DNA from: a virus
Strand: one strand, 5' to 3'
DNA length: 26,518 bases
IMG/VR virus record: IMGVR_UViG_3300031216_000059
Coordinates: 1 to 26,518 of that record
The notes below the pieces were generated by a model that was not told where the DNA came from, did no database searches, and saw only the letters and a list, made by a program, of their open reading frames with translations. Positions 2,950 to 9,131 of the stretch are shown here, one piece after another (the first letter of the stretch is position 1; every line of letters begins with the position of its first letter). A program made the position numbers and the translations under genes.

Positions 2950-2978
2950 TTGACTTTGATATAACTATCTGATATACT
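2950..2978 (+). promoter_or_regulatory. Promoter of a short RNA unit
   Basis: TTGACT at 2950-2955 and TATACT at 2973-2978, 17-base spacer. The 13 bases AGATTTGACTTTG around its -35 (2946-2958) recur exactly at the promoter at 3222, so the two may be controlled alike. The predicted start is near 2985. Confidence 0.65.
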
Positions 2979-2984
2979 TTTATT

Positions 2985-3055
2985 AGAAATCTCTCTCACG
3001 AAATTTTCATTCCAACCTTCGGGCTCAATTAACCTTGCAATTTGCAGGGTTTTTT
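2985..3055 (+). ncRNA. Candidate ~70-nt small RNA or attenuated leader
   Basis: A transcript from the promoter at 2950 would meet a strong intrinsic terminator at 3032-3055 after about 70 nt, without any reading frame that looks coding. It contains CCTTCGGG, able to form a tiny UUCG-capped hairpin, near the middle. It may be an independent small RNA or the 5' attenuator for what follows. No known RNA family recognised. Confidence 0.45.
3032..3055 (+). terminator. Intrinsic terminator
   Basis: ACCTTGCA at 3032-3039 pairs with TGCAGGGT at 3043-3050 (8 bp including one G-T, 3-nt loop), followed by a run of T to 3055. This is a textbook rho-independent terminator on the + strand. Confidence 0.8.
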
Positions 3056-3221: not shown

Positions 3222-3250
3222 TTGACTTTGGTTTCAAGGTGTGCTACACT
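3222..3250 (+). promoter_or_regulatory. Promoter of the structured RNA
   Basis: TTGACT at 3222-3227 and TACACT at 3245-3250, 17-base spacer, predicted start near 3257. The -35 context AGATTTGACTTTG is identical to that of the promoter at 2950. It directly precedes the structured RNA and would also reach the replication genes. Confidence 0.65.
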
Positions 3251-3256
3251 TGGTTT

Positions 3257-3485
3257 CGAGTTGTTCTTTTTGATTTCATTACATAGTGGCGGGCAGTGAA
3301 CCGTTAATATAAATATTAGGGGAACTTTCTCGGGATTCTGCCAGAGAGCCTACTCTGTATCTTACATAAAAAAGATGTTGCGAAAGCTATAAGTAAGACC
3401 CAAAGGCAGGAAGATAAAACGAGGCGTCAGTACACGCCTACCCTAATACTGAAAGTCAAACCTTTCCTATGTAATGAAATCAAAG
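3257..3485 (+). ncRNA. Structured RNA closed by an 18-bp helix (new candidate class)
   Basis: The two ends, 3269-3286 and 3467-3484, are perfect reverse complements over 18 bases (TTTGATTTCATTACATAG and its partner), enclosing 180 nt. Inside are further helices: GGCAG 3292-3296 with CTGCC 3338-3342; TAATA 3305-3309 with TATTA 3314-3318; AGAG 3343-3346 with CTCT 3353-3356; TCTTAC 3360-3365 with GTAAGA 3393-3398, capped by a GC-GAAA-GC tetraloop at 3380-3387; AGGCGT 3422-3427 with ACGCCT 3434-3439; and GAAAG 3451-3455 with CTTTC 3462-3466. Loop CAGTA (3428-3432) can pair with TACTG (3447-3451) as a pseudoknot. Features of group I/II introns, RNase P and tmRNA were not recognised. It precedes the replication genes and may be a leader or a stand-alone RNA. 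Confidence 0.75.
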
Positions 3486-3494
3486 ATAATAAAC

Positions 3495-3523
3495 TTGCAA
3501 AAACTAATTACTTCATATATAAT
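3495..3523 (+). promoter_or_regulatory. Promoter giving a possibly leaderless replication transcript
   Basis: TTGCAA at 3495-3500 and TATAAT at 3518-3523, 17-base spacer. The predicted start, near 3530, coincides with the ATG at 3531, so this transcript could be leaderless. Confidence 0.5.
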
Positions 3524-3530
3524 GAAACAG

Positions 3531-3716
3531 ATGACCATACCAACTAAAACCGAAATACTTTCAGCTTTATCCGATACTTATCAAAACGATTTGCCTTTTA
3601 TAGAAATGGTAAATAATTTTACTTATGGTCAAAAAGTTAATTTAAAGCGAGAAAGAAATACTATACTTACTAAACCCAATAATAATGGAAACAATCAGAA
3701 TACCACTTCGGTATAA
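3531..3716 (+). CDS. Hypothetical protein, first gene of the replication block
   Basis: The 61-residue product begins MTIPTKTEILSALSDTYQND and ends in an Asn-rich tail (NNNGNNQNTTSV). The frame is open from an ATG at 3474, but that one lies in the 3' arm of the RNA closing helix; ATG 3531 is preferred because a promoter predicts transcription starting there (3522 is a third choice). The gene overlaps the next start by 32 bases, so its Asn-rich end is also coding for the following gene. No family recognised; position suggests a replication or regulatory role. Confidence 0.45.
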   Translation: MTIPTKTEILSALSDTYQNDLPFIEMVNNFTYGQKVNLKRERNTILTKPNNNGNNQNTTSV

Positions 3717-4281
3717 AAAACAATTAGACAGATTAACACCAAAAGACAGACTTTGGTTTTTTGACTCTATTTTTTTACTTGCATCAGGGGGAAATGTGGA
3801 GCTTTTAGATACAAATGCGGGAGATATTTTAGAGCTAGTTTGGAGGGATAGTTTGCAGATGGCAAAGAAAAATGTTAAATTTAACTCAAATGCGATAGGT
3901 ATCATAGTTGCGGGTTACCCGCACACAGAAGTGAAAGGAAGTGAAGGGAAGGGAAGTGAAAAGAAAACTATGTGTGAGAAAGACTTAGAGAGTTTTGATT
4001 TATTTAGAAAAAAATATTTAGGAACTAAGAACGGAAACGAAACAGAGTTTAATAATTTTAAGAAAAAACATAAAGACTGGAAAACAATTCTACCTCTATT
4101 AGAATCAATAATTACAAAACAGATTAAATCTCGCGAACAATTAAAACTTAGAAAAGAGTTCATTCCTAGTTGGAAAAATCTATCTACTTGGATTAATCAG
4201 AGATGTTGGGAGGAAGAGATAACAATAGTTGAGGCACCAAAGAGAATGTCAGTATTTGATAAAGCAAAACAATATGAATAA
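3685..4281 (+). CDS. Replication protein, helicase-loader-like (DUF6291-like N-terminus)
   Basis: The 198-residue protein has two parts. Residues 1-60 (RIPLRYKKQLDRLTPKDRLW onward) resemble the DUF6291-type N-terminus of phage replication proteins. Residues about 105-185 (FDLFRKKYLG, FKKKHKDWKTILPLL, SWKNLSTWINQRCWEEE) match the conserved C-terminal domain of Bacteroidota-phage primosome or helicase-loader proteins. The linker carries a low-complexity GSEGKGSEKK stretch from a GTGAAGG-type DNA repeat. It directly precedes, and overlaps by eight bases, a DnaB-like helicase, the usual loader-helicase order. The loader role is inferred from that context. Confidence 0.65.
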   Translation: METIRIPLRYKKQLDRLTPKDRLWFFDSIFLLASGGNVELLDTNAGDILELVWRDSLQMAKKNVKFNSNAIGIIVAGYPHTEVKGSEGKGSEKKTMCEKDLESFDLFRKKYLGTKNGNETEFNNFKKKHKDWKTILPLLESIITKQIKSREQLKLRKEFIPSWKNLSTWINQRCWEEEITIVEAPKRMSVFDKAKQYE

Positions 4282-5395
4282 TAAAAAAATAACGCTTACG
4301 GAATTTAAGAAGGGTATTGAGACAAATCAGATATTACTATTCGCTGACCATCAAATAGATTTTGAATTAAAAGCAGATATATATAAATATTTCAAGGGTT
4401 TGATAGAAAAAAGATATACAGGGAACGGATTTTCGCTATTTGATGCTGTAGGAACTTTAGACGAATTAATGAACGAGAGAGCGAAGACTTATAGGGATTT
4501 ATGGGAATATCACTATGTAAACCTAAGAGACTTGCCAGAGGGATTTTTCGAAGATTCAAAAGATGTTATTAAAAATCTTTGTGAGGACTTAGACTCATCA
4601 AAAGAATCGTTTGTTAAATATCCATACAAAGAGCTGAATAGTGTTTTTGGAGGAATCTTTGACACAACGCTATTAGTTATTGGAGCTGATACAGGTTGTG
4701 GAAAATCAGAGCTATCTGGTGAAATCGCTTTAAATTGCATGAAGCAAGGCAAGAAAGTAGCTTACTTTGATTTTGAAAATGATAAAGGAGATTTCATTTT
4801 ACGGAACGCTTGCCGACAAATCGGGATTAAAACTGGGAAATCTTACAGCATACTAAAAGCTATGAAAGATGGAGTTAGTGATGAATTATATAATGCAATG
4901 GCAGAGATTGGCGATATTTGTGATGAAAAACTATTAATGTTTAATAATAAAAAAATCCCTAATATTTATGAATTTAGTAACTTTTTAAATCACATCAAAG
5001 AGTGGGGTGTTGACATTGTTTTCGTTGACCACATCCATTATTTCAACTTCGATAGACCAGAGGCGCAGCACCAACAAATTACGACTCTTATGGAAAAATT
5101 AAGAGAATTAGGGAAGAATGATGGAATACCAGTGGTGGTTGCAAGTCATTTAAAACAAAGACCAAACGGAAAAATGCCGACAAATTACGACTTATTTGGT
5201 TCATCTAATATTGCAAAAATAGCAACTGACGTAATTCTTTTATCTCGCGGAACTAGCGATAATAATGAGGATTATACTAATTTCTCTATAACAAAGAATC
5301 GTAAAGGTAGCTTTATTGGTAATAGCAAGGCGACATTTGACATAGTGAAACGAAATTTCCACTTTCTTTCACCAGATGAACAAAGCGGATTTTAA
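4274..5395 (+). CDS. Replicative DNA helicase, DnaB-like ATPase
   Basis: The 373-residue protein has a RecA-fold ATPase core: Walker A GADTGCGKSE at about 137-146, Walker B VDIVFVDHIHYF at about 245-256, the sensor-like ASHLKQRPNG, and a C-terminal ITKNRKG segment expected to provide the arginine finger region. The N-terminal ~120 residues are helical and may correspond to the DnaB N-terminal domain; no primase zinc or TOPRIM domain is present. It should unwind DNA 5'-3' at the phage fork. Start 4274 is chosen over the upstream ATG 4229 because it gives a short overlap with the loader gene. Confidence 0.85.
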   Translation: MNNKKITLTEFKKGIETNQILLFADHQIDFELKADIYKYFKGLIEKRYTGNGFSLFDAVGTLDELMNERAKTYRDLWEYHYVNLRDLPEGFFEDSKDVIKNLCEDLDSSKESFVKYPYKELNSVFGGIFDTTLLVIGADTGCGKSELSGEIALNCMKQGKKVAYFDFENDKGDFILRNACRQIGIKTGKSYSILKAMKDGVSDELYNAMAEIGDICDEKLLMFNNKKIPNIYEFSNFLNHIKEWGVDIVFVDHIHYFNFDRPEAQHQQITTLMEKLRELGKNDGIPVVVASHLKQRPNGKMPTNYDLFGSSNIAKIATDVILLSRGTSDNNEDYTNFSITKNRKGSFIGNSKATFDIVKRNFHFLSPDEQSGF

Positions 5396-6733: not shown

Positions 6734-6859
6734 ATGAGAAAACTAATTATAACAAAGTTATCAAAAAAACAGCTAACAATGCTGAAATGGAGTAATGAAA
6801 AACTCGTGATGAAAATCATAAACTTACAAAATGAAGTTCTTAGAGCAAATAAAAAATGA
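6734..6859 (+). CDS. Small basic hypothetical protein
   Basis: A 41-residue helical protein rich in Lys and Leu (MRKLIITKLSKKQLTMLKWS at the start), possibly a short coiled coil. It starts two bases after the preceding stop and its TGA overlaps the methyltransferase ATG (ATGA), so it may serve to couple translation into the methyltransferase. Function unknown. Confidence 0.5.
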   Translation: MRKLIITKLSKKQLTMLKWSNEKLVMKIINLQNEVLRANKK

Positions 6860-7503
6860 ATATAACAAATGAATGCAATATGAAGCTAATGGCTCGCTAT
6901 CCAGATAATTATTTTGATTTGGCTTTGATTGACCCTCCTTATGGGATAAGAGAGGATGGAAAAAAAAATCATTCTAGAGGCAAGAAAGCTAAAGCAAAAA
7001 AGTATACCCCAAAAAATTGGGATAAATCAGCTCCAAATAAAGAATATTTCGCGGAATTAAAAAGAGTTTCTAAAAATCAGATAATTTGGGGTGCAAATCA
7101 TTTTATTGAAAATATACCCGAAGCAAACAGTAGCTGTTGGATTGTTTGGGATAAAGTTAATGGGAAGACAGATTTTGCGGATTGCGAAATGGCTTATTCT
7201 AGCTTTAAAACAGCGGTTAGAAAATTTGTCTTTACTTGGCACGGAATGATTCAAGGAGATATGAAAAATAAAGAAATAAGAATCCACCCAACACAAAAAC
7301 CTGTAAAGCTTTACGAATGGCTTCTAATGAATTACGCAAAAGAGGGAGATAAAATATTAGATACTCATTTAGGCTCTGGAAGTATAGCTTTAGCCTGTCA
7401 TAACCTAGGATTTGATTTAACAGCGTGTGAACTAGATAAAGAGTATTATGACGGTGCAATGGCACGATTAAAGGTATATACAGACCAATTAACTATATTT
7501 TAA
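6856..7503 (+). CDS. DNA N6-adenine or N4-cytosine methyltransferase, beta class
   Basis: The 215-residue protein has catalytic motif IV DPPYG at 26-30, preceded by DLALI, and the AdoMet-binding motif I (LDTHLGSGSIALAC) near 167-180. With IV before I, the order is that of beta-class amino-methyltransferases. The middle contains IIWGANHF and SCWIVWDK, typical of phage site-specific methylases, and IHPTQKP precedes motif I as usual. No matching restriction enzyme is adjacent, so it is probably an orphan methylase protecting phage DNA from host restriction or marking it for regulation. Confidence 0.88.
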   Translation: MNITNECNMKLMARYPDNYFDLALIDPPYGIREDGKKNHSRGKKAKAKKYTPKNWDKSAPNKEYFAELKRVSKNQIIWGANHFIENIPEANSSCWIVWDKVNGKTDFADCEMAYSSFKTAVRKFVFTWHGMIQGDMKNKEIRIHPTQKPVKLYEWLLMNYAKEGDKILDTHLGSGSIALACHNLGFDLTACELDKEYYDGAMARLKVYTDQLTIF

Positions 7504-7534: not shown

Positions 7535-7563
7535 TTGACATGGTGATAAAACTTCTATATACT
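7535..7563 (+). promoter_or_regulatory. Promoter, GTGTTGACA type
   Basis: TTGACA at 7535-7540 preceded by GTG, and TATACT at 7558-7563, 17-base spacer. Start near 7570; the leader holds AACCAAAAAAATC before ATG 7591. Confidence 0.7.
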
Positions 7564-7590
7564 AGATAACGATTACTAACCAAAAAAATC

Positions 7591-7728
7591 ATGAATTGCC
7601 AATACTGTAAAGAACCGCTAGACGACTATGAGTTTGAAACGTGTGAAGTATGTGAAGAAGAAAACGAGGAAATAGTAAACGAGGAAGCGGTAGCGAGAGA
7701 TGATTACGAAAAAAGCCAATATATTTAA
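7591..7728 (+). CDS. Small acidic zinc-ribbon protein
   Basis: A 45-residue protein with CQYC at 3-6 and CEVC at 18-21, a classic rubredoxin-like zinc knuckle, followed by a very acidic helix. It has its own promoter and AACC leader. Small zinc-ribbon proteins in phages often act as protein-protein or nucleic-acid adaptors; the strongly negative tail makes it a candidate DNA mimic or host-factor binder, which is inference. Its TAA stop is part of the next gene's leader (TTTAACC). Confidence 0.65.
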   Translation: MNCQYCKEPLDDYEFETCEVCEEENEEIVNEEAVARDDYEKSQYI

Positions 7729-7738
7729 CCAAATAAAA

Positions 7739-7864
7739 ATGAGTTTCGAAAAATGGTATCAGACACAAGAAAAAAGCCTTGAGAAATTATTTAGCACTAG
7801 TCAGATTGTATTCATAAAAACATTACTAGAATATTCGTGGGTAGTAGGACAATCAGAAAAATAA
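7739..7864 (+). CDS. Small hypothetical protein
   Basis: A 41-residue, probably helical protein starting MSFEKWYQTQEKSLEKLFST. It has a full AACCAAATAAAA leader, identical to that of the next gene. No family recognised. Confidence 0.55.
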   Translation: MSFEKWYQTQEKSLEKLFSTSQIVFIKTLLEYSWVVGQSEK

Positions 7865-7886
7865 ATTAAAATTTAACCAAATAAAA

Positions 7887-8105
7887 ATGAAAAATTTAAA
7901 TAAAATAATCGGCTTCATGAAAAAATCTATCGACTCGATAGAAGTGGCAAAAATTTACCCAGAGGAGTGGGTGGTGTATGGAATATTTACATTGTTGTTC
8001 TGTTTAACTGGATTTGTTTTGCTTCAGGATAAAATGCCTGAGGAGGATTTAAATCAGTTAATGAGTCAAAGAACATTTGAACTTCAACAATATAACCCAA
8101 AATAA
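7887..8105 (+). CDS. Small single-span membrane protein
   Basis: A 72-residue protein with one clear membrane segment at about residues 29-47 (WVVYGIFTLLFCLTGFVLLQ), flanked by a basic N-terminal part and an acidic C-terminal part. It precedes two genes for exported proteins, so the group 7887-9571 may act at the cell envelope. Its last codons form the leader AACCCAAAATAAA of the next gene. No family recognised; an inner-membrane accessory or superinfection-exclusion role is only a suggestion. Confidence 0.6.
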   Translation: MKNLNKIIGFMKKSIDSIEVAKIYPEEWVVYGIFTLLFCLTGFVLLQDKMPEEDLNQLMSQRTFELQQYNPK

Positions 8106-8106
8106 A

Positions 8107-8625
8107 ATGACAGAAACAAAAATCGATTTCAAGTATGTAATAACAGAAATGAGTATTGCGGCGGTAGTACTATTTGTGGGAATTGCTTTACCGACTGTAG
8201 GAGCTGAACCAAGATTCCATGAGCTATATCCAGATAGAAATATCGCCCAAGTAGAATTGGTGAGTATGTTTGAGAATCCTGTTGAGTGGGAAAAAGAAAA
8301 AAAAGAATCTGAATATTTTCTATCAGATGGAACGGATTTGAGAAAACTAAGTCTAGCGGTTGCAATGCACGAAACAAGGAACTGCGGAATTGTTACGAAT
8401 TTTACTGTATTAGATAATTGCTTAGGAATTAAAATACAAGGAAAGCCTGCTAAATTCCCCGCGACAATTAACGGACAAAGATTTGAGACATCTCATTTAT
8501 ACTTTAGGGATTTATGGAAAAGGTTATATGGTAGATTTCCAGACATTGAGCTTGCTATAAGGTACTCGGGAGATGATAGACCAGAGGCGTGGTTAAAAAA
8601 TGTTACTCACTTTTATTATAATTAA
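8107..8625 (+). CDS. Exported lysozyme-like protein
   Basis: The 172-residue protein begins with a hydrophobic export or anchor segment (about 13-33, ending PTVGAEP). The remainder, AVAMHETRNCG, LDNCLGIKIQGKP, FETSHLYFRDLW, GRFPDIELAIRYSG and WLKNVTHFY, has the pattern of lysozyme-like transglycosylase-fold proteins, with a catalytic Glu in MHET and an 'NNcxGi' turn. It would cleave the glycan strand of peptidoglycan outside the membrane. It lies far from the lysis genes and among early/middle genes, so it may help entry, virion egress through the wall or superinfection exclusion. Start 8107 is preferred over 8077 because of the leader box directly before it. Confidence 0.65.
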   Translation: MTETKIDFKYVITEMSIAAVVLFVGIALPTVGAEPRFHELYPDRNIAQVELVSMFENPVEWEKEKKESEYFLSDGTDLRKLSLAVAMHETRNCGIVTNFTVLDNCLGIKIQGKPAKFPATINGQRFETSHLYFRDLWKRLYGRFPDIELAIRYSGDDRPEAWLKNVTHFYYN

Positions 8626-8628
8626 ACA

Positions 8629-8862
8629 ATGAATAAAGAAGTAAACGGCTGGCGAGAAAGATTTGAAAAGTTTAATAAACAAAATCACAGTCTTTTGGGA
8701 GCATTAAAAAGTCATTGGGCAAGTTTCATTGAAAAAGAAATAGAAAAGGCAAAGAGAGAAGCAAAGATTGAGGTTTTAAATAGCATTAGAGATGTTTCCC
8801 ATAAAAACTCAACTCATGGGATAATTTCTCGTAAAATAATGGAATTAGAGGAAGAATTTTAA
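8629..8862 (+). CDS. Hypothetical coiled-coil-like protein
   Basis: A 77-residue protein, almost wholly charged helix (ASFIEKEIEKAKREAKIEVL in the middle), likely a coiled coil. It starts three bases after the lysozyme-like gene. Similar short proteins with an 'IEKAKREAKIEVLNSI' core are frequent in phages but have no assigned role. Confidence 0.6.
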   Translation: MNKEVNGWRERFEKFNKQNHSLLGALKSHWASFIEKEIEKAKREAKIEVLNSIRDVSHKNSTHGIISRKIMELEEEF

Positions 8863-8873
8863 ACCCTAAACAA

Positions 8874-9131
8874 ATGAATTATGAAATAACAACACCTAAA
8901 GAATCTAAAAAAAGATTCATACATAAAGTTGGCGATGTCTGGCAAACTAAGAAAGAAACAAGGGAGGTTTTAAAAGTAGACCGCAAAAGGTTCACGTTTA
9001 GTTATAATAAAAACCTTGGTACTTGTGGTTCTTGTGGATGTTGCCCTATAAGGAGTGGAGAAAAAGAGACTGGGAAAAAAGCATTTCTTTTTTGGATAAA
9101 TTACAACAATGCTAAATTAATTAAACAATGA
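8874..9131 (+). CDS. Hypothetical Cys-rich protein
   Basis: An 85-residue protein with GTCGSCGCCPIRSGE near residues 49-63, four Cys in close order that could bind zinc or another metal. The N-terminus has beta-like repeats (KKRFIHKVGDVWQTKKETRE). The leader AACCCTAAACAA is a variant of the usual box. Its TGA overlaps the metalloprotease ATG (ATGA), so the two are co-translated. No family recognised. Confidence 0.6.
   Translation: MNYEITTPKESKKRFIHKVGDVWQTKKETREVLKVDRKRFTFSYNKNLGTCGSCGCCPIRSGEKETGKKAFLFWINYNNAKLIKQ

Follow-up and report, generated by a model that had tools for sequence, protein, structure and literature searches.

The tRNA-like structures of plant viruses are viral mimics of tRNA, and tmRNA joins a tRNA-like domain to an extended helix at the anticodon-stem position. 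Phage T4 encodes stable small RNAs, species 1 and 2 (rnaC and rnaD), that are annotated beside its tRNAs, and rnaC ends in a T-arm-like hairpin. GOLLD and ROOL, which are often found near tRNA genes, are structured RNAs of phages and bacteria without an assigned function; we know of no tRNA-like outer body in either. Three-dimensional structures of GOLLD and ROOL have been described (PMC12286853).

Here we analyze an RNA encoded in a 26,518-base phage record from IMG/VR, hereafter the window (the whole stretch of DNA under analysis). Our best explanation is a structured RNA of about 220 nt that stands alone and belongs, as a divergent member, to an unnamed and widespread phage RNA family. Several features separate this family from the systems above. 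Unlike tmRNA, the phage RNA has no tag frame, no model match and, as a rule, no encoded CCA. Whereas the plant-virus structures form the 3' ends of RNA genomes, it is a separate RNA of DNA phages and appears to carry a conserved core in place of the anticodon arm. T4 rnaC and rnaD lack this core and do not match our family model R2, making them analogues rather than members. GOLLD and ROOL are much larger, and their Rfam models match neither the window nor its homologues. The copy in lambdoid phages lies between the late promoter and the holin gene, as do lambda 6S RNA and the late leader, but lambda itself yields only a 23-nt match at the query end, and in other phages the family sits elsewhere.

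No Rfam 15 family scored above its gathering threshold, or at E ≤ 10 for the window, and in the homologues Rfam recognized true tRNAs only. The literature covered, a scope that left out most subscription journals and preprints, described neither the family nor the sequence of its core. The family looks previously undescribed, with prior publication possible. An earlier sequence-only reading of the window had proposed a new structured RNA outside known families; the Rfam results and strong covariation bear this out. It had also recognized no intron or tmRNA signature, and Rfam and ARAGORN (tmRNA) agree. The tRNA-like architecture and the relatives, however, it missed.

The window RNA and its setting

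The window RNA has an unusually stable predicted fold. Positions 3257-3490 reach -67.8 kcal/mol, compared with -47.3 ± 4.3 kcal/mol after dinucleotide shuffling (z = -4.78; none of 200 shuffles did as well), and contain no open reading frame of 50 or more amino acids. The elements of the RNA and its surroundings are as follows.

3222-3250, plus strand: sigma-70-type promoter TTGACT-17-TACACT, ending 18 bases upstream of the 5' arm of the closing helix
3267-3286, plus strand: 5' side of the acceptor-like closing helix, which has 18 perfect pairs and two more
3287-3306, plus strand: D-arm-like hairpin UGGCGG-GCAGUGAA-CCGUUA (from the fold)
3306-3313, plus strand: linker AAUAUAAA, in the place of the AAUCAG conserved in other members
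3314-3321, plus strand: 5' strand of helix H2, UAUUAGGG, in the anticodon-stem place and pairing with 3441-3448 (covariation)
3322-3414, plus strand: inner module, starting with the conserved GA(A) and containing a UCUUAC/GUAAGA stem and GCGAAAGC
3415-3421, plus strand: core strand UAAAACG, invariant in aligned homologues
3422-3439, plus strand: core hairpin AGGCGU-CAGUAC-ACGCCU (fold, p 0.89-1.00; homologues)
3441-3448, plus strand: 3' strand of H2, CCCUAAUA (covariation)
3451-3466, plus strand: T-arm-like hairpin GAAAG-UCAAAC-CUUUC (fold; compensatory changes relative to locus L162)
3467-3486, plus strand: 3' strand of the acceptor-like closing helix, beginning right after the T-arm-like hairpin (gap 0)
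3525-3716, plus strand: small gene of about 63 amino acids, directly 3' of the RNA; also in the related phage G001, there without the RNA
3685-4281, plus strand: gene with a weak replication-initiation-protein match
4277-5395: DnaB-like helicase gene, next after the preceding gene

The sequence elements named in the sequence-only reading are all present. Its 18-base perfect complement (3269-3286 with 3467-3484) extends to 20 pairs (3267-3286 with 3467-3486), and the promoter, the internal helices (with GCGAAAGC at 3380-3387) and the GGCAG and CUGCC sequences are all found where it placed them. All eight H2 pairs form in the window. The inner module folds ambiguously, as a CUUUCU/AGAGAG hairpin, UUCUGCC/GGCAGGA or CUUUCU/AGGAAG, with probabilities of 0.2-0.8, and no homologue of this module was found. 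We rejected two apparent matches as chance: one to Felix-O1-like phages (79% identity at 3353-3408, E = 0.1), which covers the inner module only and falls in annotated coding DNA, and one to a crAss-like phage that has no core there.

Comparison with G001 suggests how the RNA came to lie where it does. G001 carries a counterpart of the small gene (50% identity) and, directly 5' of it, a promoter block TTGAC-17-..TTTCGA whose alignment to the window's promoter block beats all of 2,000 shuffles. The RNA is absent, and the small gene begins about 30 nt past the promoter. Because G001 has both promoter and gene without the RNA, we regard the window RNA as an accessory insert between the two. Neither a single-sequence model nor the family model matched the searched records of G001, G002 and G003, and protein searches with the terminase, capsid, helicase and small-gene product returned few relatives of the window phage, none with the RNA.

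The lineage of the window phage is otherwise very sparsely sampled; a sediment Gammaproteobacteria MAG contig (L036) encodes a terminase 49% identical to its own. Elsewhere in the window are a VanY/M15-type endolysin gene (1372-1905) and a DNA methyltransferase gene (6856-7503). A second strong promoter, TTGACT-17-TATACT (2950-2978), has an intrinsic-terminator-like hairpin downstream (3031-3051), and a separate small RNA of about 70-75 nt is possible at 2950-3055. The sequence TTGCAA-17-TATAAT at 3495-3523 (10/12 matches) overlaps the start of the small gene, in a region where about four such sites are expected by chance.

A widespread family of phage RNAs

Searching plasmids with window positions 3250-3500 by blastn matched one segment of 30-45 bases twice independently, each time in intergenic DNA without annotation. 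One match was in 215-kb Bacillus plasmids and the other in an E. coli lambdoid phage-plasmid, and the anatomy around them was the same. Queries built from the plasmid copies matched Escherichia phages CUS-3, IME10, Huey and Jgk1, phages of Aeromonas, Hafnia and Acinetobacter, Pseudomonas M1, Psa21 and D6, and TPWB-08, and Vibrio phages were reached with a class B query. A variant occurs in Erwinia jumbo phages: pEa_SNUABM_4 (L173, 1860-2045) has, between tRNA-Glu and tRNA-Asp, a variant core, CUAACACGAGGCG, whose inner module is tRNA-like and which lacks the outer body.

The core pattern TAAAACGAGNCGN8CGNCTA occurs in at least 119 IMG/VR viral stretches, nearly all with the expected flanking elements; the matches in L130 and L161 look like chance. 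A 16-mer of the core region produced only chance matches in viral contigs. The E. coli copy was matched in 155 of 5,426 complete E. coli genomes (about 3%), with no annotated feature beneath it among the 15 matches listed. Among the cellular genomes sampled, the core pattern was found in 0 of 369 and the model in 0 of 398, the latter being weak evidence because that set held no positive control. On these sequence searches, the family appears to reside mainly in viruses.

The window RNA belongs to this family. It contains the core UAAAACGAGNCGN8CGNCUA exactly (3415-3440). The covariance model R2, trained on 32 other members with the window left out, matches window positions 3272-3488 from end to end, scoring 44.7 bits with E = 3.6e-12 in 339 kb. 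The R2 consensus structure is poor, with only six pairs, because the inner modules do not align. Our covariation claims rest not on that structure but on pairing tests of H2, the acceptor-like helix and the permuted form of H2.

The nearest relative of the window RNA is L162 (IMGVR 3300033141_000627). The two have in common a variant D-arm and linker, GUGGCGG.CAGUGA.CCG.UAAUAUAAA (the D-arm-like hairpin of L162 is GUGGCGGACAGUGAGCCGCUAAUAUAAA), and an unusually long closing helix. Their T-arms, CCAAG-UCAAAC-CUUGG in L162 and GAAAG-UCAAAC-CUUUC in the window, differ by compensatory changes. Neither has the typical AAUCAG linker before H2; both have AAUAUAAA, which sets them apart as a divergent subgroup, and we do not treat AAUCAG as defining. 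In L162 the genes that follow the RNA are terminase genes rather than replication genes.

Conserved architecture and covariation

Comparison of the homologues shows a predicted layout of tRNA-like outer body, H2 at the anticodon-stem position, core junction and variable inner module. Class A members run, 5' to 3', through an acceptor-like strand, a D-arm-like hairpin, UAAUCAG, H2, GA(A) and the inner module, followed by UAAAACG, a hairpin AGGCGN..NCGCCU, an A, H2', a T-arm-like hairpin and the second acceptor-like strand. UAAAACG is kept in all aligned homologues, a strand that the search pattern itself fixes.

H2, as predicted from these comparisons, is the best-supported helix of all. It is paired at 7/7 positions in 49 of 55 nonredundant homologues (43 distinct sequences). 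Mean pairing is 6.89 of 7, against 4.62 (maximum 5.09) in a control in which pairing partners were exchanged between loci. A base is bulged at one position in 31 homologues, and it is always A; in the 24 sequences without the bulge, all eight pairs vary on both sides. The covariation score of 0.667 compares with 0.162 for shuffles, 0 of 500 of which scored as high, and with at most 0.173 for slid structures. In the window this helix is the UAUUAGGG/CCCUAAUA pairing that the sequence-only reading had offered as an alternative fold. The pairing is present and covaries at every pair, but it is compatible with the closing helix and no alternative to it.

The outer helices are conserved in the same way. 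A T-arm-like hairpin of 5-6 bp with a 6-9-nt loop occurs in 46 of 54 homologues, and in 35 of 54 it is abutted by an acceptor-like helix paired at 7/7, compared with 3 on average and 8 at most in the exchange control. The ends of the acceptor-like helix differ in sequence between homologues while their pairing is kept, which confirms that the closing helix is real and covaries. The CAGTA/TACTG pseudoknot proposed earlier can form in the window but is not conserved (the mean complementary run between loop and strand is 2.87 in 55 homologues versus 2.82 when shuffled). Other loop pairings, including a kiss between loop and inner module, did not rise above controls. We consider it close to certain that the family and its structure are real.

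An outer body that resembles tRNA

An acceptor helix abutting the T-arm is a hallmark of tRNA. Further resemblances appear in individual members: L148 has a D-arm, GUGGCGGAAUUGGUAGACGC, like that of tRNA-Leu, similar D-arms occur in L163, L116, L156 and L039, and L148, L071 and L163 have 7-nt T-loops such as UUCGAGU or UGCAAAU. The 3' end of L148 reads ..CUGACCACCA. ARAGORN called no tRNA in the outer bodies, even with the core cut out, and we therefore call them mimics, not tRNAs; "tRNA-like" here describes a predicted architecture rather than a match to a tRNA model. In the window itself, neither ARAGORN nor Rfam called a tRNA or tmRNA.

Most members lack an encoded CCA, and the acceptor-like helix varies from 7 to more than 20 bp. 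Both observations argue against aminoacylation or EF-Tu binding. With aminoacylation disfavored, the RNA is more likely to act by docking or as a decoy than in translation.

Exchangeable modules and a permuted core

The inner module is swapped among at least four unrelated kinds, some of them tRNA-like. In L140 (about 8950-9010) ARAGORN identifies it as tRNA-Gln(CUG), a tRNA nested within a tRNA-like RNA. The outer body also occurs without the core, in the enterobacterial phages mEp460, UPM2146, P1 (several tandem versions) and HK620. These core-less outer bodies, of the form GUUGUGGUGAAUGCGCAGGCUGAUGCGC ... GCCGGAGAUCAGCACCGGUCACCACAAC, lie in L050 (2501-2640), L051 (2500-2640), L052 (2200-2900) and L176 (about 1120-1240).

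About 18 nonredundant loci carry a circularly permuted core. Here a hairpin closes the AAUCAG side of H2, and a closing helix, of eight pairs in most, opens the inner side. H2 pairing is retained in the permuted form at 7.32 of 8 (control 4.61), with 12 distinct perfect versions. Permuted cores often sit right after a tRNA or odd tRNA in tRNA arrays, some in contigs larger than 300 kb.

Genomic neighborhoods and possible function

Of 85 loci, 40 have a tRNA within 500 nt of the RNA. The loci themselves are rich in tRNAs, but among random positions within them the share is 15%. The nearby tRNAs listed are on the same strand as the RNA. Any one neighboring gene family recurs in at most 5 of 86 loci, and no shared partner protein was found. 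Copies lie inside tRNA arrays, before terminase genes and after ligA. The lambdoid copy occupies the interval from Q to the holin gene, which in the HK620 annotation extends from the late promoter through qut to the terminator tQ. The only possibly RNA-related neighbor seen is an RtcB-like RNA ligase, recognized by eye near 4 of 86 loci (for example, L125 at about 7560-8860).

We propose that the RNA is a stand-alone, trans-acting tRNA mimic, and give this reading, description and mechanism together, a probability of about 0.45. The window RNA would form the beginning of the transcript made from the promoter at 3222 and would perhaps be excised by way of its long closing helix. It would then act in trans, its tRNA-like body docking on host tRNA-handling machinery such as the ribosome or tRNA-processing or tRNA-cutting enzymes. 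The conserved core would be presented at the anticodon-arm position, and the host machinery would be occupied or decoyed during infection. Action in trans is suggested by the proximity of tRNAs and the lack of a common neighbor gene. Several points weigh against a tRNA mimic: ARAGORN rejects the outer bodies as tRNAs, CCA is mostly not encoded, no tRNA adjoins the window copy, the inner module of the window has no homologue, and the window RNA lies between a promoter and a gene. Slightly more tentatively, we envisage a modular class of phage RNAs, with a tRNA-mimicking chassis, a permutable core in place of the anticodon arm and exchangeable modules, that might serve counter-defense or host takeover in trans, or might be a new ribozyme.

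A cleaving or splicing ribozyme, or a self-processing module tied to phage tRNA transcripts, is unlikely but survives best among the alternatives. It would fit an unpaired core that is invariant, circular permutation as known from some ribozymes, inner modules that are themselves tRNAs, as in L140, and the occasional RtcB-like ligase. However, Rfam returned no ribozyme or intron match, and excision would leave no consistent functional tRNA, the outer body being without an anticodon loop.

Slightly less probable is a putative cis-acting leader that would control the following operon, whether as a riboswitch-like element or as an antiterminator of the HK022 put RNA kind. The window RNA does follow an early-type promoter and precede the small gene and the replication genes, the lambdoid copy occupies the late promoter-qut-tQ stretch, and G001 keeps the promoter and gene without the RNA. 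Yet no downstream gene is common to the loci, and the scarcity of shared neighbor families argues against a cis-acting leader. The spread of copies over tRNA arrays, sites ahead of terminase genes, a site behind ligA and other places speaks against it too, circularly permuted forms within tRNA arrays fit it badly, and we saw no conserved terminator or element sequestering a start site. The sequence-only reading had allowed for either a switch-like leader of the replication genes or a stand-alone RNA; the varied contexts and lack of a shared neighbor gene favor the stand-alone RNA and make the switch an improbable function for the family.

A tmRNA-like rescue RNA is very improbable and already largely refuted: the layout is similar, with a tRNA-like domain and a helix at the anticodon position leading to a further domain, but neither ARAGORN nor Rfam called a tmRNA, no tag reading frame or resume codon was seen, and CCA is mostly not encoded. 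Weakest of all is the insertion into the leader of a MITE-like mobile element bounded by terminal inverted repeats of 18 bp, which the perfect repeat and the insertion relative to G001 would suit, but the ends vary in sequence among homologues yet stay paired, the arm 17-mer occurs once each in only two viral contigs, no target duplication was seen, and the covariation refutes it as a sole explanation.

Implications

These results reveal an RNA family, absent from Rfam and unannotated at the RefSeq E. coli sites inspected, that extends over at least 119 viral stretches and reaches from phages of Escherichia, Aeromonas, Hafnia, Pseudomonas, Acinetobacter and Vibrio to Bacillus plasmids. It appears to combine tRNA mimicry, module exchange and natural circular permutation. 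Because E. coli prophages and phages of laboratory E. coli carry copies, the function of the family is directly testable. The family bears on the old question of what role untranslated stable RNAs play in phage tRNA clusters. On the more tentative modular reading, very different phages would deploy such an RNA against tRNA- or ribosome-directed host machinery.
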